Assembly: GCF_905475395.1 (NCBI RefSeq)
Contig: NC_058342.1
Location: 25,082,640-25,146,639, forward strand
Direction: 5' to 3'
Origin: Chrysoperla carnea
Lineage: Eukaryota; Arthropoda; Insecta; Neuroptera; Chrysopidae
DNA length: 64,000 bases
Shown here: positions 2,030-51,280 of the stretch, in pieces
Layout: each line of letters opens with the position of its first letter
How positions within the stretch are numbered: position 1 is the first letter of the stretch
Notes under the pieces: generated by a model
What the model saw: only the letters and a program-made list of their open reading frames with translations
Told to the model about the DNA's origin: nothing
The model's database searches: none
Program-made: the position numbers and the translations under genes

Positions 2030-2722
2030 AACTTCCCGCTAAGTATTGACTCATAACGTGTAAAAAATTTTATCTATTCTGATGTTATATCCACTCGCAT
2101 TTTATTGTAATTAGATGTGATCTTAGTGTTTGATAAAACACTATTTTTTAAATTTTCAAATCGCAATAACTTTAGAATGAATAAACCGATTTTCACGCGG
2201 TTGGTGACATTCGACGCAGTTTTTGAAGCTTCATGAAGAATCTTTAAGTTTCAATTGATAGAACAAAAAATTTTGAGGTTATTCCGAAAAAACACTTTTT
2301 TGGGTTTTCTTTTGTCAACGATAACTCTTGAACGAATCAACCGATTTTGATCGGTGGTGATCGACGTGGTTTTTTTATGTTGAGAGCTGATTAGTTTTTT
2401 TAATTGATCGATACAGCCGTTTAAAAGTTATTCAAAAAAAACCACTTAAAAAAAATTTTTTTTTTGCAGTTTTTTGAGATTTCTCGAAATCTATCGCATC
2501 GGTCCAAATAGGCCTCAAAATCTAAGTTTGGTCAAGCCCTTTCGAATGGCACCAACCGCGATCAAATCGGACAAGCCGTTCAAAAGTTATGAGAGGTTTA
2601 CATACATCCACACACACTTAGGGAAGCTTCCTGACACCTTAAAACGTCGAGATCTGATGAAAACTCGATTTTGGCAAAACGGGGTGAAAACAATAACTTC
2701 CCTATTTTCTTAGCGGGAAGTT
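2030..2722. mobile_element. Non-autonomous TIR element, about 693 bp
   Basis: The ends carry a perfect 14-bp inverted repeat, AACTTCCCGCTAAG at 2030-2043 and its reverse complement at 2709-2722. The interior has no intact transposase. It contains repeated phrases such as AACGAATCAACCGATTTT and CGTTCAAAAGTTAT. The open frame at 2474-2713 runs into the right TIR and has no recognisable domain. A target-site duplication is not obvious. The superfamily is not assigned. Confidence 0.65.
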
Positions 2723-2819
2723 AAAAATTAACACTAAATACTAAAGATGTAAACTGATGATGACGCTTGATGATGAGTTTGAGCTTCAAATTAGGGTTCC
2801 ACCTAAATAAATAAGAGTT

Positions 2820-3460
2820 ATGTTTAGTGTCAAATTTTAAAAATGAGTGGAAAAAAAAATTTATTAACATCGAAAGTCGATAACTCGAGATATGCGTACT
2901 AAAAGTAATTCCCTAACCTCATTTTTAATAAAACACATAGTAATTATTAATAAACAAACATCCCAAAAATATCTCCAAAGCATCTTTGATATTTTAAATA
3001 GAGCGCGTCCAGCTTTTACAAATAGTCATTTATGAGTGACTCATAAGAAAAATCATTTTCTACTTTTTAGTACAATAAAAGGTTGTCCCTAAAAAGTATT
3101 TTGATTTAAATTGAAAACTAAACGTTTGTACATTAAATATGTTGAAAGCGATGGGAAAATCCGGTCATACTTACCATACAACTGCCTTTTCCTCCCTTTT
3201 ATTTTTTTGAAGTCCTAGTAATCATTTTGGCCCCATCCTGTGCGTGACCCTTTTCATAAAAATTTTTATTTTGCTCTTCGTAAATCAACTTATCACCCCC
3301 TTGTGGCGCCCTTATGGTACAAATTTGTTTTTCTTATTTAACCTTTGTCCGGGGCCCCTAATCAATACGGGGCAGTTAGGCTGTTGTCTTATTCGCCTAA
3401 TGGATAATCCATCACTGAGTGAAACTAAATAAAAGCTTGTAAAAACGTAAATGAACTACT
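2820..3460 (+). repeat. Dispersed repeat, related to 46600-47070
   Basis: Several blocks match a second locus: the AGCTTTTACAAATAGTCA region with TGAGTGACTCAT near 3010-3045, a block containing CTTACCATACA near 3171, and the end block GAAACTAAATAAAAGCTTGT near 3420. In the other copy the first block is one arm of a hairpin at 46738-46890. No coding capacity is recognised. Confidence 0.5.
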
Positions 3461-4110: not shown

Positions 4111-5024
4111 TCAATTCTCAAGTAAAACAATTAAGTTCCGATGTTCATGACCTTCAAATTTTCCTTTTTCCGGAAATATTCGATCACATTCATCGCATGA
4201 ATAATGATCTTGTCGTGTATGATTTATTTTATGCTTAATAAAATTAATTTTGAGAGTAAATTCTTGATCACAGATTCGACATTCATACGGTTTACCTCCA
4301 GTATGAACTTTTTTAACATGCCGCCCCAAATTACCTACATTGACGAACGTTTTGTGACAAATTTCACACATATATAACCTTCCGTTGTCGTGAAATCGTC
4401 GTACATGCCGCTCCAAATTACCTAGCTTGACGAATTTTTTATGACAAATTACACATTTCAATGACCTTTCGTTGCCGTGAAATTGTCGTAGATGCCTAAG
4501 TAAATATGAAACCGCCTTGAATTTCTTATCACAAACATCGCATGAATATTGTTCTGAATCTAAGCAATATGTGTTTTTTTGATGAGTTATTAGATAATTT
4601 TTCCGGGCAAAGGTCTGATTACAAATATCACAGACGTGAGAATAAGGTATTGTTTTTCTTAGATGCATTTTCTTAGATGAATTTGACTTATCTTCATTTT
4701 CATCTTGATCTACATCATTTCTCCATTATCATCATTATCTGAATAAATTTCATCACTTTCCGAAGTTTCTTTTGATATTTCATCAATATCTTCTTTAATT
4801 ATCAATTCGGAGTGAATTTGTTCCATTTTACAATTAGTTAAAGTCGAAGAATTTTCGAAATCAGTCTCATTTTGAATAATTTGTTCAGAGTGTAACTGAA
4901 TTTCTACAACTTTCGAATCAAAATTTTCATTCTCATTTGAATATTGTTGTTCAGTTTTAATATTTTTTAGTAACATTTCATCAATTTCTTCTTTAGTTAT
5001 CAATGTTGAATGATTTTTTTCCAT
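4111..5024 (-). pseudogene. C2H2 zinc-finger protein with an apparent one-base frameshift
   Basis: Two adjacent minus-strand frames look like one gene. The upstream frame (ATG at 5022-5024, stop at 4710-4712, 104 codons) encodes an acidic, Ser/Glu-rich N-terminus with one IKTE SUMO-type site. It ends in the acidic tail SDNDDNGE. The downstream frame (4111 to about 4722) continues in the same character, NDVDQDENEDKSNSSKK, then gives six C2H2 fingers. The first finger is degenerate in its second half. The others follow CX2C-X12-HX3-4H with knuckles such as CDVC, CVIC, CEIC, CRIC and CDEC. The frames differ by one base, consistent with a single-base loss within about 4711-4724, and no intron signals lie there. 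Function is probably sequence-specific DNA binding in the nucleus. It could be a young pseudogene, a polymorphism or an assembly error, in which case it is an intact gene of about 300 residues. Confidence 0.7.
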
Positions 5025-18560: not shown

Positions 18561-19125
18561 TTTTTTTTGCAAATTTAAATTCTTTCAACTAAATAGTATT
18601 ATATTGAAAGTGAATTGTTTGAAAATAAATTAATTTATTTGAATTAAGTAAATAAGATTATTAACCTTTATAGTTAATAGGGCAAGCCTATAAAATTTAT
18701 TATTTGCTTAATTGATAATAAAATTCATGACGTTTTATTTAACATCATTTTTTTCTTAAAATGTCAAACTTTCCGTGTAAATTTTTGTTGCGCTATTCAT
18801 TTATTTTGAGATGACACATACGTCAATTTTTTTTGTTAAGATATGTGGTTAGGTGAGTAATACTCATAAGGTTTGTTCCATGGAGGTTAGGGAGAAGGAG
18901 AACGATCGAAATTTGTAAAATTTATAGTTCATTTTTCAGACACCAGCCGCGCTGTCGTCGGTAAGTAGTATCTGCGAAGTTAGCTGTTTATGAGTACAAG
19001 TAGATGAAGTTAGTATCATTCAAATTTATAAAGTAGTATAGATAAATTTATAAAGTAGAATAGATAATTTATAATTTATTCATTAGTAAATAATAATAAT
19101 AATTAATAATAATTTCATTATTTGC

Positions 19126-20056
19126 TTTTATACCATGCATAAATGTAATATGCAAGGTATACTAAGTTTAGTCCCAAGTTTGTAACGCTTAAAAATATTG
19201 ATTTTACGCCCCAAATTTTGGTATAGGTGTTCATAGAATCACCTAATTAGTCCATTTCCGGTTGTGCGCATCATAGATCAATTGGGTCTTGGGTCCGTAG
19301 GATCCATCTTGTAAACCGTTAGAGATAGAACAAAAGATTAAATGTAAAAAATGTTCCTTATAATAAAATAAACAACTTTCGTTTGAAACATTTTTTCGTA
19401 AACATCATTGTTTACCAGGGAGGGCCCCAATTAGGCGGAAATTTTATAGTATGTGCCATGGAGGTTATAAAGAAGGAGAACGATCGCTATAGAAAATATT
19501 GTCTCCAAAATATGGACAAAATAAGTGAGGCGCTGGAATCGCTAAGTTGTCTCATTAAAAGCGGGCTGTTGCGCGCTAATTTCAAATGATCTATCAACGT
19601 TTACTATACGTGTATATAATATCATTCAAAGGAAAAAAAAGAGCAAATAATGAAATTATTATTCATTATTATTATTATTTACTAATGAATAAATTATAAA
19701 TTATCTATTCTACTTAATAAATTTATCTATACTACTTTATAAATTTGAATGATACTAACTTCATCTACCTGTACTCATAAACAGCTAACTTCGAAGATAC
19801 TACTTACCGACGACAACGCGGCTGGTGTCTGAAAAATAAACTATAAATTCTACAAATTTTCAGGGACAGACGCGCTAATGCCTTAGCGCATAGCGATAGT
19901 TCTCCTTTTTTATAACCTCCATGGTATGTACTATACTTGAATATCAGTTATGTATGTGTCACATGTAATATGTGTTATGTGATAAAAATCAAAACTGACT
20001 ATGCATGGTATTTCAACAATTAACTCAATCAATTGTTTGTTTTCACTTGTTTTTTT
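19126..20056 (+). mobile_element. Dispersed family A copy inserted in element X
   Basis: It begins TTTTATACCATGCATAAATG, continues AAGTTTAGTCCCAAGTTTGT, TTTTGGTATAGGTGTTCATA and GAGATAGAACAAAAG, and ends CAATTGTTTGTTTTCACTTG. The same order is found at 52464-53039. It splits element X copy 1 in a T-rich run, and is itself split by element X copy 2 at 19456-19924. Confidence 0.75.
19456..19924 (+). mobile_element. Element X copy 2, uninterrupted (469 bp)
   Basis: The TIR-like ends are CCATGGAGGTTATAAAGAAG and the complementary right end CCTTTTTTATAACCTCCATGG-type sequence. TATGTG lies to the left and TATGTA to the right, a probable 5-bp target duplication (TATGT). The interior has no recognised transposase; a short open frame (19383-19589) crosses the left boundary and is not a gene. 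Confidence 0.75.
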
Positions 20057-20652
20057 CCTTTGAATGATATTATATACACGTATATTAAACGTTGATAGAT
20101 CATTTGAAATTAGCGCACAACAGCCCGCTTTTAATAAGACAACTTAGCGATCCCAGCGCGTAACTTATTTTGTCCATATTTTGGGGACAATATTTTCTAT
20201 AGCGATCGTTCTCCTTCCTTATAACCTCCATGGTTTGTTCCTTTGAATATACATATATAAGCTAGGCTTCTAGCGTCAAATTTGATCACATACATGGTAT
20301 AATTTCGATCAGAGTGCATTCTAGATAAAAAGCAACGATAAAACTAAAAATATTTTAGCTTCAATTTATTGACGCTGGTATCATACAATTCTATAATTAA
20401 AGTAGTGTATCGTTACCATGGAAACGTCTGTCTCCAATAAAACTCACGCACGGTGCGAATAACGGAATGAATTTCTCTCCAGTAAGAGCACTGAACAGTG
20501 CGAAGTGTATATCGGAACGCACCCTTAATTGTTTATGGTAAAGTAACAACGATTGTGTATATCTGTATTCTTTGTTACCATTCACAAGAATTCACGATGG
20601 TTACTTAATGAAAAATCGGTATTCCTACAAAAAGAAAAAATAACTTATCAAA

Positions 20653-22068
20653 ATGGAAAATAGTTCATCAGAATTTATGATAAAAAATGAAATGTTAGAC
20701 GACAGTGTTACAATCGAAGATGGTCGAATTAAAAATGAAATATCATTAAAAGATAACAGCAATGGTAATGATGAACGAATTCATGAAAATACGGGACAAA
20801 TATACACAATAAATTACAAAGATATCAAAATTGAAAAGGGTTTAACTACAGAATTAAATATTAAATATGGAAGAGACACAGTGGAAGATGAGCGAATTAA
20901 AAAGGAAATACGTGATGATAACAGTGCCACAATGGAAAATGTCCAAGATAGCAGCGTTATAAAAAACGAACAAAGCTCTTTAAATGAGGAGCATTTGTCT
21001 ACCATTAAAAACATGAAACTTGAAAAAGAATTACATACAGAAATAATGGTCAAAGATGAAGTATTAGATGAAGGTCTGTTAGAATCACGGGTTCAAATTG
21101 GAGAAAACCCGTTTTCATGTGATGTAACACAACATAAACGGATTCATTCGAAAGAAAAACTATTTTCATGTGATATTTGTAATAAAACATTTACTTATGT
21201 AGGCAATTTAGTTAAGCATAAACAAATTCATGGTGAAGAAAACCTATTTTCTTGTGATATTTGTGGCATAACATTTAATCACCAAAACAGTTTTACTCTT
21301 CACAAACGAATTCACAGTGAAGAAAAACTATTTTCTTGTGATATTTGTAATAAAATATTTAATGACCAAAACATTTTAATTTTGCATAAACGAATTCATA
21401 GCGGAGAAAAACTATTTTCATGTGATGTTTGTAATAAAACATTTACTTATGTAGGCAATTTAGATAAACATAAAGAAATTCACATGGAAGTAAAAGTATT
21501 TTCATGTGATATTTGTAATAAAACATTTAATCAACAAAGAAGTTTATTTTCACATAAAAGAATTCACAATGAAGAAAAGCCATTTTCATGTGATGTTTGT
21601 AACAAAACATTTACTCAAATAAACCATTTTCATCAACATAAACGAATGCATACCGGAGAAAAACGATTCTCTTGTGATATTTGTGGAAAAAAATTTACTC
21701 ATGAAAGCAATTTAGTTAAACATAAACATAGTGTAGAAAAACGATTTTCATGTGATATTTGTAATAAATCATTCACTTTTCAAAGTAATTTACTTCAACA
21801 TAAAGTAATTCACAGTGGGGAAAAACCATTTTCTTGTGATATTTGTAATAAAACATTTAATCGAAAAACGACTTTAGTTCAACATAAAAAGATTCACAAT
21901 GAAGAAAAACCATTTTCATGTGATTTCTGTGATAAGTCATTTATTGATAAAGGCAATTTAATTAGACATGAACGGGTTCACAGCGGTGAAAAACCATTTT
22001 CATGTGAAATTTGTAATAAATCATTTTCTTGTCAAAGTAATTTAGTTAAACATAAACGACTTCATTAA
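20653..22068 (+). CDS. C2H2 zinc-finger protein, C-terminus truncated by a retrotransposon (471 aa)
   Basis: Single open frame from ATG with context AAAATGG. Residues 1-150 are acidic and hold six ψKxE SUMO-consensus sites (K11, K27, K59, K83, K104, K134), such as MIKNEM, RIKKEI and MVKDEV. From residue 154 comes a collapsed finger (FSCDVTQHKRIH, centre missing), then eleven fingers. Most have the stereotyped FSCDICNKTF start. Finger 7 ends KHKHS with an irregular second histidine and shortened linker. Fingers 1 and 4 are almost identical (TYVGNLVKH, TYVGNLDKH), suggesting block duplication of three fingers. Probably a nuclear DNA-binding regulator; the target is unknown. The stop TAA at 22066-22068 begins 1 bp inside the LINE fragment that starts at 22065. 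HTGEKPFS resumes after the insertion at 22553. Confidence 0.85.
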   Translation: MENSSSEFMIKNEMLDDSVTIEDGRIKNEISLKDNSNGNDERIHENTGQIYTINYKDIKIEKGLTTELNIKYGRDTVEDERIKKEIRDDNSATMENVQDSSVIKNEQSSLNEEHLSTIKNMKLEKELHTEIMVKDEVLDEGLLESRVQIGENPFSCDVTQHKRIHSKEKLFSCDICNKTFTYVGNLVKHKQIHGEENLFSCDICGITFNHQNSFTLHKRIHSEEKLFSCDICNKIFNDQNILILHKRIHSGEKLFSCDVCNKTFTYVGNLDKHKEIHMEVKVFSCDICNKTFNQQRSLFSHKRIHNEEKPFSCDVCNKTFTQINHFHQHKRMHTGEKRFSCDICGKKFTHESNLVKHKHSVEKRFSCDICNKSFTFQSNLLQHKVIHSGEKPFSCDICNKTFNRKTTLVQHKKIHNEEKPFSCDFCDKSFIDKGNLIRHERVHSGEKPFSCEICNKSFSCQSNLVKHKRLH

Positions 22069-22539
22069 ACTGGTGTAAAACAGGGGTGCTTGCTTTCTCC
22101 CCTCCTATTCCTAATAGTGCTTGACAAAGTGATGCGAAAGGTCAATGAAAACAGACGCAGAGGTATCAGGAGGAAGATGATAGAACGACTAGAAGATATT
22201 GATTATGCTGATGATCTTTGCATTATGTCACATACCATCAAAAACCAAAGAGTTGAGAATAAACAACGCCAAAAACGAAGATCTTATCATTAACAACCAA
22301 CAGATACAGCGTGTACGACAGTTCCAATACCTCGGAAGTATTGTTTCTGAAAATGGCGGCTCTGATGAAGATGTAGAACAAAAAATCAGAAAAGCCAAGG
22401 CAGTGTTTGCGCAGAAATTACCGAAGAAGGCAAATCTTGGGGAGAAGTCAAGTCCATGGCACAGAATCGAGTTCGTTGGCGAGCATTTGTTGAGGCCCTA
22501 CGTCCCCTTCGGGATCATAGGACATAAATATATATAAAT
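22065..22539 (+). mobile_element. Non-LTR retrotransposon fragment inserted in the zinc-finger gene
   Basis: The plus strand reads reverse-transcriptase sequence GVKQGCLLSPLLFLIVLDKV, then LEDIDYADDLCIMSH with the YADD catalytic box. After a frameshift it reads INNQQIQRVRQFQYLGSIVS and DEDVEQKIRKAKAVF. It then jumps to a C-terminal-type segment, VKSMAQNRVRWRAFVEALRP, followed by a stop. Sequence between the last two blocks is missing, so the copy is 5'-truncated and internally deleted. The 3' end is AAATATATATAAAT. Flanking 13-bp duplications ATAAACGACTTCA lie at 22052-22064 and 22540-22552. Confidence 0.9.
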
Positions 22540-22611
22540 ATAAACGACTTCACACTGGAGAAAAACCATTTTCTTGAGATATTTGTAATAAACTTGATGG
22601 ATGAAAATAAA
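22540..22611 (+). pseudogene. Severed 3' end of the zinc-finger gene with poly(A) signal
   Basis: After the target duplication the frame resumes as KRLHTGEKPFS, then TGA where TGT (Cys) is expected, then DICNKLDG and a stop. This is the start of one more finger, now decayed. AATAAA at 22606-22611 is a plausible polyadenylation signal, so the current transcript may carry the retrotransposon and this remnant as 3' UTR. Confidence 0.75.
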
Positions 22612-25600
22612 ACTCAAATATTTTTTGTGTAATAATTTATTGCTGTAATCGATTTGTTAATTCAACATAAAAATTATATTAGAAAATTAAATTTGTTTTC
22701 ATTTTTTTGATTGCTCTGTGACAAAATGTACAATTTGTTTTTCTTTCATATAAATAAAAAAAAAACCCTAATATTTCCAGTCGATAAAAATAAAACTTTT
22801 CACGAAAAACAAAAAAAATTCAATTAATCATTAATTAACTAGACTAGAGAAATAAGAACTTAAAATTGAAAAAAAAAACCCATTTAACATTTTTTTTTTT
22901 TTTGTTTTAATTATTTTAACTATCAACAATGTTTTTTTTACAATAAGTGCACCTCAGGATGGATGTACTAAAATATTAAAATATATCCCACAGGATAATT
23001 TTCATTAAAATAAATACTTTTTTGTTTGAAAATATATTTTAAACAATTTACAAAACAAGATACGAGCGTTAAGTAATACCTCGATGTCGTCGCCATTTTG
23101 TTTAGTAGCTAAACGTAGCCATTTAATTTGTTCTTTTTCCACAATCATGTATATGTCACCGTAATATTGTATAATTTCCGTTAGATTGTAAACTACCTAG
23201 TAAAATTGTAAATTTATCTTCCAAAAAAAGACCAAAAACTAAAAATCTATAATCTACTCGATCTACTAAAAATAACGCAATGATTTGATTTTCGTTAAAA
23301 GATGTTGAGTTAGTTACAAACAATATTATGTTGACATATACAGCACATTTGATAAATCATTTCCCAGGCTACATCCATGAGTATGAGAGAGTACATATAC
23401 ATTAAGCAATGTGTATAAAAAAGATACTATTATATGTTTACTTGTATGTGTTTGTAGCTTTACTCAGTGGCTGTTGTTTTTTTATTTATACTGAGGGTAT
23501 GTAGAGAGAAATAATCTTATTACACTGTAATGACTTTGTCTTTTTCTATTTCGAACTGTCTATTAACACCATCCGGGCCATTCCTATCCTTCCAGTAATT
23601 GGTTGTCAGGGGGGATATCCAGACTTCCACGGATTGGCCATATCTTTAATGCTGTAATTGTTAACCCTGCGATTGCGGGTATCTTAATTACATCGATCCG
23701 TGGATAATGTGAGTACCAGCACCATTTCTATTTATAGTGTAATGCAAGAGTCAAAAGAACAAACTAAATTTCCCAAAATGCTCAAGTCGATAAGTTAAAC
23801 CCATTTTATATATATATAAATTTATTCTGATTTGAGGGGAGCCATTTTACGCCGACCTTAAAGTTCATACTAATAAATAAGTTATAGGAAAAAAGCGTTG
23901 AAATTCCTAGCACCATTACTCGTACCTCTTCTCGTTGCGCATAACCTACCAGCTGAAGGTAGGTACCATAGACAAACTCTTATTGGAAGAACCGTACGAC
24001 ACTATTGAGGGATACACGAATTCAAAATTTTTAAAGATTTTATTTAAAAAAATTTTGATGATGTAGCTAAGATTTGAACCAATTATTTTCAGAATAAGAA
24101 GCCGATGTTATAACAGCTCGACTGTGTAAGGTATACATGGAACAGTCAAAAAAGAAGGTGTTACTTTCAAAATAGTTCGTGTAACTCTCAAGAGATACGC
24201 TAGTGTCGCTTATTTCCATTCCATTAATATGATTGTATCGTCTTATTAATGTTTGTCTATGACAGGTACTGTTAAAGTACGAGTGCAAGGCCTCTTATAA
24301 CAGAAGAGTCAAGGATTCAGTACCCAAAACATTCTGTTCTTGACATTGAAATAAAAAATTAAAATAAAATACGCCGTCATTTTGCAAAAAAAATTATTTG
24401 TGTCAAAATCGAAATTAAGCATTAAAGATTGCCCCTGATTGATGATATTAACAACACAGCCATTCTCAAAATTAATAACCAAAAAATATATTCTATCAAA
24501 GAAAAACAATACTTATTTTTTTGAAAACACCTGTATATATTAATATATGTATATACACAGAATCTTCAAAAAAAATTTATAAACCTTTTTATCGTAAGAA
24601 AAAGATTGGTCACTTTTTGAAGATCCTGTATGTATAAATCTACTATTTTAATATATATATATATAATATATATTTTATTATTTAATTAGTTAATAAACAA
24701 ATATTTACAAAAAAAGCTTTCATTTTTTAATGATTTGTATCGATTTTAAAACAGTATTTGTTAAAATTTATTATACCGAGTGATTCAAATATATAGGTAT
24801 TGCGAATTGTTATCAGAGAAATTATTAATTTTACAAGAAATTGTTTTTCTAGTAAATTAATTTAATTCTGAAGACTACGAGCGGAAAAACGTTAGTATGA
24901 AGAAATCATACAAAATAAGTAGGAAGAGACACGAATTATTATATGGTTTACGAATTGAAAAAGGGTAGCGGATAATTCAAATCAATGAGGTATGCTAAAA
25001 ATTGGAAGTCACATTTATAAGTAGTTATTGAATATTCTAAGAAAAATCCAAAGAAAAAAAAATAACACGAAGTATATGGATTCTGTGATAAAAATTCGAA
25101 ACGCTTCAAATTGAAACACTCGTGGTATATCTGTTTCCCGTAGACTAAAAAAAATTATCTTATTTTTAATATATTATTAATAAGATTGTTGCATGATAAA
25201 AAAGAACTCGCATTTTTCTTTATATAAAATTTTCTTGTTTATGAAAAATCTTTCATTTCATCTTGTCTGGAAAACATTTTCATTTAATACATAACATTAA
25301 TTTTAATTCGCAAAAATTGGGCGCCATGTTAATTTATGAAGACAAAAAAAACTACGGTATTTCGTTACAAAAAGGCCCCTTGCGATGTCGAGTGCCTAGA
25401 GATGTATCACCATCAAATTCGCCACTGGAGGTATAACAGACTGGATTATCTTAGAGTGGCGCCAAACAAAGTTACCTCACAGCGTATTATTGCAGGTATA
25501 GTATCTAGTCTTTGCCTTAAAAGTAAAGGCAAATCAAAAATTTGATCCTAAAGAGAGTGAGAGGCAAAATTTAAAGATACAACGATATTTAGTAAGTGAG

Positions 25601-44729: not shown

Positions 44730-45504
44730 GTGTATATTGGTATGGTATGGTATGGTATGGAGGTTAGCGGGCCATGCTCGAGCATCGCGCCTCGAAGCAA
44801 TGGTTCAGAGCACCTAGCCAAATAGACCCTTGTACTCTATCCCCGCTACGCTTTTCAGTGGCTATTATAACCAACTGATGTACTGAAACCCAGGATTTGC
44901 CTAGCGCTGAGTTTCCTAATTTCTTCTGGTTCGACTATGGCCAGACCAAACCATTTCCTTTGCTGCTGTATGAGCGCCGGGCAGTAACAGAGAAAGTGGA
45001 TCGATGTTTCTTCTGAATTTTCTCCGCATCTGTCACACGCGGGAGATTGTCTTTTTCTACGATGACTCTAATATCAGCTCTGTTTAGTTTCAAGATATCC
45101 TCGGCTCTGTTACCAAGCGAGTTTCCTTCACCCAACAGGCTTTTGGCGATTCGCCCTCTCTCGTAGCTGGCCCATGCCTTTAATTGTTGGTTTTTCAGAT
45201 CATCTCGTAATCTGTTAAGACCTTCTTGGTATGGCATCCTCGCAAGCTTTTCTTGAGTTGGAGCCATGGTGGTTCCCAGTTTGACCAGCTTGTCTGCTCT
45301 CTCATTACCGTTCCAACCAAAGTGTCCGGGGATCCAGATAATATTGACTTTGTTGTGCCTCGCCAGGTTGTTTAGACTGTTTCTAGTCTCCTTGACGAGT
45401 CGCGATGACACTGTACAGTTTGATAGCGCTTTGAGTGCTGCTTGACTGTCTGTGCAGATACTAATCACATTATCCTTCAAATTGGCCAATTGCAGGTGGT
45501 CAGC
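44730..45504 (-). mobile_element. 5'-truncated LINE with RNase H domain, 16-bp target duplication and (CCATA)n tail
   Basis: The duplication ACATAATTGAGACTTT lies at 44714-44729 and 45505-45520. From the truncation the minus strand is in frame: ADHLQLANLKDNVISICTDS, QAALKAL, then the RNase H box IIWIPGHFGWNGNERADKLV and a linker to RADIRVIV. Near 45060 one frameshift separates this from CDRCGENSEETSIHFLCYCP, the terminal C/H motif, which ends QILGFSTSVGYNSH and stop. The 3' end is a (CCATA)4 tail at about 44738-44760. RNase H plus the CCHC-like end fits a jockey/I/R1-group LINE. It is a different family from 40994-41500, judging by 3' sequence and tail. Confidence 0.92.
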
Positions 45505-46737
45505 ACATAATTGAGACTTTCCGGATATTAGTAGCTTCTATTTTGTTATTAGACAAAGTGCCACACGTAGTTTCAGCACTAACGCACGTATAGAACAAAT
45601 CCGTGTTTATGTGTATTTAAAAATTATATTTAATTCAAGGCTAGTCACAAAAATAATTTTTGATAAGGTGAAGCCGTTTTATACTAGACTTAATAATTGT
45701 TATGCACATTAAAATTCACGTGACAAAGCCGCGTGGTACAGTTACATCTCTAAAAGAGTTAATACTTTTTAAAACCATGTCCGTAGTATTTGAGGGTAAA
45801 ATGGGACAACCACTACTTTGTAATGTCATAAATATTTTAAATTATTCGAAATTAGTCAAAACATCTATTTTTTCCCAAACTATAAAAGATAGAAGGTTCC
45901 TAATTTGCAGATATCTTCAAATATTGTGTGTCTATAGATTCTGATTTTGTATCAAACCCAAAAAATTTTGGCTGTAAATGTCGTATTTTATAAATAATAA
46001 TGCAAACACTATACGCACTTATACATAAATAAATCTATAATTAAGAGTATTACAAATTTAGTCTAAAATTTGAATCAAATATAAGTAAAGTTTTGCCATA
46101 AAAATCGACCTTTTGACACTCTGAAATTAATTTAATTATGCACCTCTGAAACTAAAAAAACTCATGAGTAGCAGAGATCCATCGATACGTATTATGGTTG
46201 AAGAGAGATAACTATATTAACAGAATTTTAAACAACACTTCGTAGACTTTGTACACTAATATTATATGAGAAATATTTGAGTAGGTAGCGAATTTAAACA
46301 AAAATGGTCTTTATGGCAAACAAACCACTTTTATTGGATTTATTGGAAAATATTTTTCGAACAGTGTCTAGATTCCGTAGAATCAATTATAAGATATAGG
46401 TAATGAAAAACAATTTTGGGTAGAACTTTTCAGCCCGTTATTGTCTAAACAATACGGTTTGCGGAAAAAGTGTTTCGAACAAAAAATGTTAACCTATAAA
46501 TGAACAACAATTTTCTAATTTAAAGTGTTCATCTATTGATTACCAGTTATGGAGTAGAGACAGCTTTTCGTTGAGCCTAAAATTCTAGGTCAAGTTTAAT
46601 GTTGCGTAAGATGTGCGCCTACACACCCGACATTTTTTGTTTGAAGCTTTTTTATCGATAAACTTATTTTTCTAGTTGCAAGCATGTCAACTAAAAAAAA
46701 AAAACTTTTTAAGGAACAAGCTTTTATTGTAATAAAA

Positions 46738-47933: not shown

Positions 47934-51280
<3,347 letters not shown>

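Follow-up and report, generated by a model that had tools for sequence, protein, structure and literature searches.

A LINE insertion closes the reading frame of a probably functional C2H2 zinc-finger gene

LINE elements insert by target-primed reverse transcription, a route that leaves a 5'-truncated copy with a target-site duplication. In Drosophila, the CHKov1 gene is reported to be truncated by the non-LTR element Doc and to encode a much shorter protein; the Doc allele is polymorphic and selected, and its expression and phenotype were shown (PMC3197678). The APEZ / zinc finger 271-like proteins, as described in PMC6444547, contain numerous tandem C2H2 domains (3-45 repeats) with a penta-peptide linker.

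We analysed a stretch of 64,000 nucleotides of Chrysoperla carnea (the window), in which a C2H2 zinc-finger ORF is closed by a stop codon at the edge of an insert (Table 1). Judging from the sequence, it is quite probable that this ORF is a functional member of an expanded C2H2 family, capped by a 5'-truncated LINE at the cost of no more than a 16-residue stub. Direct reading agrees with the earlier note, which had described a frame open over 471 codons and an array ending in RLH: the C-terminus of the protein reads ...HKRLH and is immediately followed by TAA. The fingers recur with a period of ~84 bp and are joined by linkers such as SGEKP, TGEKP and NEEKP. Ten of the 11 have standard spacing, the exception having its first Cys at 21673, and the last one (from 22003) possesses both Cys and both His, i.e. 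all four zinc ligands; a finger relic sits ahead of the array. No KRAB domain was detected in a Pfam scan of the protein, and no relatives were found in the viral contig collection searched. The search of its own genome (559 Mb in 337 contigs, as for all own-genome searches below) gave 124 matches (best 40 of 793 candidates scored), the paralogues among these best 40 being 64-89% identical by piece.

The sequence GTGTATAT[CT]GGAACGCACCCTT occurs at 20501-20530, 140 bp ahead of the ATG, and also ahead of the second ORF of L013 (-184), of L018 (-170) and of L024 (-204), i.e. in 4 of 33 ORF rows with the window gene counted; it is possibly a core promoter common to a subfamily. Directly 5' of the gene, nested inverted repeats of foldback or MITE-like appearance occupy 18878-20233, with arms of 221 nt and 184 nt, each 96% complementary. 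Elsewhere, the minus strand of the window carries another C2H2 gene, of a different kind (4111-4725), and two ORFs (44935-45537 and 48680-50023) that look like the RNase H part of a retroelement and like ATP synthase beta. Rfam and tRNA scans over the window returned no matches.

Table 1. Features of the finger gene, the insert and the displaced 3' sequence (window coordinates)
Feature	Position	Strand	Basis or remark
C2H2 zinc-finger ORF, 471 aa	20653..22068 (stop included)	+	Pfam zf-C2H2 163.5 bits, 11 stretches
11-finger C2H2 array	21169..22065	+	H-x-H replaces H-x3-H in the finger starting at 21673
Target-site duplication, left copy ATAAACGACTTCA	22052..22064	+	direct reading
Filler TT at 5' junction	22065..22066	+	absent from 9/9 element copies with printed 5' context
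TAA stop made at junction	22066..22068	+	filler T + element AA
LINE block 1, reverse-transcriptase core	22067..22241	+	profile match, own-genome copies
LINE block 2	22240..22413	+	own-genome copies
AATAAA within insert, possible early poly(A) signal	22258..22263	+	consensus match only
LINE block 3, running to AT-rich 3' end of element	22413..22539	+	own-genome copies
Target-site duplication, right copy ATAAACGACTTCA	22540..22552	+	13/13 identical; element 3' end at edge
Displaced linker + partial-finger stub	22553..22592	+	finger homology ends sharply at 22592
TGA stop inside displaced stub	22575..22577	+	direct reading
AATAAA 3' of insert	22606..22611	+	consensus match only

The insert comprises 475 bp (22065-22539) between perfect copies of ATAAACGACTTCA. 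It contains a reverse-transcriptase match (Pfam RVT_1, 31.9 bits for a cut-off of 29.6, E 1.4e-7) and gave 77 own-genome matches, the window's own included (best 40 of 155 candidates scored); when block 1 was searched alone, 19/19 candidates were scored. The Pfam match and the same-genome copies together confirm that the insert is, as previously noted, a retrotransposon reverse-transcriptase fragment. No relatives of this piece were found in the viral contig collection searched. The element sample consisted of 29 further loci, or 24 once loci repeating the same copy were dropped. Over block 1, the 10 other copies that match at least 168 of the 175 bases are 89-97% identical. Between blocks 1 and 2, the window copy is devoid of ~70 bp found in other copies, and between blocks 2 and 3 it is devoid of 385 bp found in the four copies measured, the joints of both internal deletions overlapping by 2 to 4 bp. 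L033, the closest block-1 copy (97%), has deletions that differ from those of the window copy.

Upstream of AAACTGG, the element continues in all nine copies with printed 5' context, and it does so without TT. The window copy is thus 5'-truncated and carries two filler bases, the second of which forms the stop codon with the first two bases of the element. The first inserted base completes the final His codon of the last finger, and the TAA does begin 1 bp inside the fragment, as had been claimed. At the opposite edge, the right 13-mer begins directly behind an AT-rich tail that is common to the ends of many copies. Considering its 5' truncation, the 3' end at one edge, the target-site duplication and the absence of terminal repeats, we conclude from sequence features that the insert is a LINE-type (non-LTR) retrotransposon copy. 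Note that the start of the element (22067-22079) resembles the displaced host linker (22554-22566) at 11 of 13 positions, a likeness that was noticed after the fact and is reached at 3 of 62025 window positions outside the gene; either annealing at the 5' junction or coincidence could account for it. Another copy, L050 (= L038 copy; 1501-2216 and 2467-3174), has a different gene of the finger family as its neighbour, with ~250 bp between the copy and the 3' end of that gene; this is a single case among the other copies sampled, and the location is possibly due to chance.

The 13-bp duplication that the earlier note had placed on either side of the insert is perfect. The corresponding stretch recurs in every finger, so we checked for a tandem-repeat origin, in which the 13-mers would be homologous parts of two adjacent fingers and the insertion would have replaced the finger body. 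Such an origin is in line with the repetition of the stretch every 84 bp and with its exact sharing by adjacent paralogous fingers, which was observed in 110 of 351 pairs and in 33 of the 221 pairs whose first finger is not of the commonest form; to the eye, the bases ahead of the right copy also look like finger sequence. These AT-rich bases, however, are the LINE 3' end, as seen in other copies, and the exact 13-mer is present in none of 383 paralogous fingers (27 loci; L003 was left out, as were L001 and L005, which represent the window gene and a duplicate locus) and in none of the other nine listed fingers of the window. Moreover, joining the flanks without the insert restores a unit of the normal 84-bp length. 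Given these three points, the two 13-mers are most simply read as a target-site duplication; the tandem-finger origin, which we consider highly improbable, was rejected on the 0/383 count and the position of the element 3' end.

Behind the right 13-mer, the finger frame resumes in the way anticipated from the first inspection of the sequence, with RLHTGEKPFS, a stop, the short tail DICNKLDG, a second stop (22602-22604) and AATAAA. The displaced stub has the layout of a linker followed by C-x2-C and is close to the family-majority finger unit (3 mismatches in 22 positions, then 1 in 18, i.e. 4 in 40), whereas an ungapped comparison beyond 22592 yields 46 mismatches in 66 positions. Counted from the insertion point, the next in-frame stop leaves 7 residues; should that stop be younger than the insertion, the count up to the second one is 16. 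As the last finger is complete and family homology ends 40 bp past the duplication, the clear loss amounts to this stub of at most 16 residues. The proposal that the insertion had severed a complete finger, which then decayed, was accordingly dropped. When the bases at ~22618-22675 were treated as a decayed finger, an nhmmer unit model gave 3.1 bits, a score reached by 5 of 1000 shuffles; their alignment score was matched by 5 of 500 shuffles against the window's own last fingers and by 227 of 500 against the family majority unit. For regions farther 3', scores were matched by 144, 222, 172 and 426 of 500 shuffles. A much older finger relic farther downstream is a possible reading of these comparisons. 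The 3' flank up to 23125 has itself as its sole own-genome match, the other matches being confined to 23126-23487, a region of dispersed repeats with many inverted neighbours across the genome.

The ends of the paralogues provide a reference for the end created by the insertion. In a sample of 30 ORFs from the 29 best-matching paralogous loci with at least three fingers each, which is not random (two loci give two ORFs each; L001, L005 and one L003 ORF of a different kind were left aside), the distance from the last finger to the ORF end is at most 9 residues in 30/30 cases and at most 2 in 24/30. The LINE-made end is thus of the family's usual kind, and, from the sequences, other members have reached similar ends without an insertion. 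In 3 of the 30 ORFs (L016, L017 and L026), the frame closes within the linker or on reaching the next Cys, and a linker/finger remnant is found behind the stop. It is therefore a realistic possibility, which we rate somewhat below evens, that the window array already ended at the linker or one codon-step past it, so that the LINE hit a dangling tail and changed little. The abrupt end of homology at 22592, behind 40 bp that are close to the family majority, points in the same direction. On the other hand, with ~3% change since the insertion, one change in 40 bp also fits decay after the insertion, and an array that had ended beforehand differs from the explanation that we prefer, capping by the LINE, in timing only. 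No second, empty-site copy was found among the best 40 of 793 own-genome candidates scored.

We also considered splicing that would excise the insert and restore a continuous array. Among 120 GT-AG pairs (donors in 21990-22199, acceptors in 22430-22599), not one adds a finger; the longest product has 494 aa, and the 12 longest listed all lose the histidines of the last finger. Even exact removal of the insert would meet a stop after TGEKPFS. As we found no point in its favour, we regard splicing across the insert as having next to no likelihood, and it was rejected.

We then estimated whether the truncated gene has been maintained. Compared with the clear majority of 22 copies (the five repeat loci, L031, which is the window's own, L032 and L033 being left aside), the window insert differs in 15 out of 471 columns; 14 of these differences are private, and L033, compared separately, has none of the nine comparable private substitutions. 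The private fraction is 14/471 for the window copy and 0.005-0.030 for the 22 others, i.e. the window copy sits at the upper limit of their range, so the insertion is not young. If 12-14 neutral changes had occurred, the 471-codon frame would have remained open with a probability of 0.06-0.09, and open with all 40 ligands still present in the 10 standard fingers with a probability of 0.012-0.006 (0.003 in a simulation at 0.03 per site). Some private substitutions, however, could be reverse-transcription errors or stem from source lineages missing from the sample, and two of their clusters might each count as a single event; if only 5-8 changes postdate the insertion, the probability of an open frame with its ligands rises to 0.14-0.05. 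The dN/dS of the fingers, suggested as a check in the earlier note, could be obtained in part: a value of 0.61 (pN/pS 0.151/0.231) indicates weak constraint, for nine fingers each compared with its nearest finger, a choice that biases the estimate.

Without constraint, the array would be expected to remain open with its standard ligands intact in ~0.6-1.2% of cases, so the protein is probably still used. This makes plausible the suggestion that the shortened protein is the working form, and the sequence comparison indicates that the gene was probably kept in use after the insertion, presumably by selection. The converse would be a dying gene, in which the insertion hit or made a pseudogene whose frame has merely lacked the time to close since a recent event. 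Broken family copies do occur (for instance L027, with split frames, and L014, whose ORF has no start in the usual place), one window finger is off-spacing, and pseudogenes are reported for such a family in Oncopeltus (PMC6444547). The divergence of the insert and the low probability of an intact array at that age both speak against a dying gene, which we hold to be unlikely.

Taken together, the data suggest the following course of events. A 5'-truncated LINE copy landed in the last zinc-binding His codon, behind its second base, most likely by target-primed reverse transcription, as inferred from the truncation, the 3' end and the duplication. The inserted T preserved the His codon, and the following bases gave TAA. 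At most the linker and the partial-finger stub, up to 16 residues, were lost, so the DNA-binding array is unchanged and the protein ends like its paralogues. In the presumed transcript of the gene, the LINE would now act as the predicted 3' UTR or its first part. The locus offers a clean, datable case of a mobile element that provides an intact-looking regulatory gene with its stop codon and predicted 3' UTR, and it comes with built-in controls in the same genome, i.e. the element relatives and the gene paralogues, and it illustrates that an insertion within a coding frame can be near-harmless when it falls behind the last domain. A more elaborate scenario strikes us as far-fetched: a transposon would have closed the frame of a finger gene of the kind proposed to bind and repress transposons, its insertion with two filler bases by chance sparing the last zinc ligand and placing a stop where the family usually ends, and the trimmed form would have gained an advantage over a version ending in a dangling half-finger. 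The event is an ordinary one, a further example of something known, and it opens no new mechanism.

The insert resembles a typical truncated LINE in its 5' truncation, AT-rich 3' edge, 13-bp duplication and extra bases at the 5' junction, and departs from it by two internal deletions, which date from the insertion or later. As in CHKov1/Doc (PMC3197678), a non-LTR insertion in coding sequence shortens the product and places element sequence in the transcript (here predicted); in contrast to that case, the window gene loses a stub only. The gene itself fits the APEZ / zinc finger 271-like family of Hemiptera, next to which we place it by resemblance. Both hallmarks, tandem C2H2 domains with linkers (11 fingers) and a large family (the 124 matches among the best 40 of 793 candidates scored), were found. 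The hemipteran proteins (PMC6444547) share with it long C2H2 arrays with short TGEKP-type linkers and many diverged paralogues genome-wide, some of them broken, and there is no KRAB domain here; unlike them, the window gene owes its end to a LINE.
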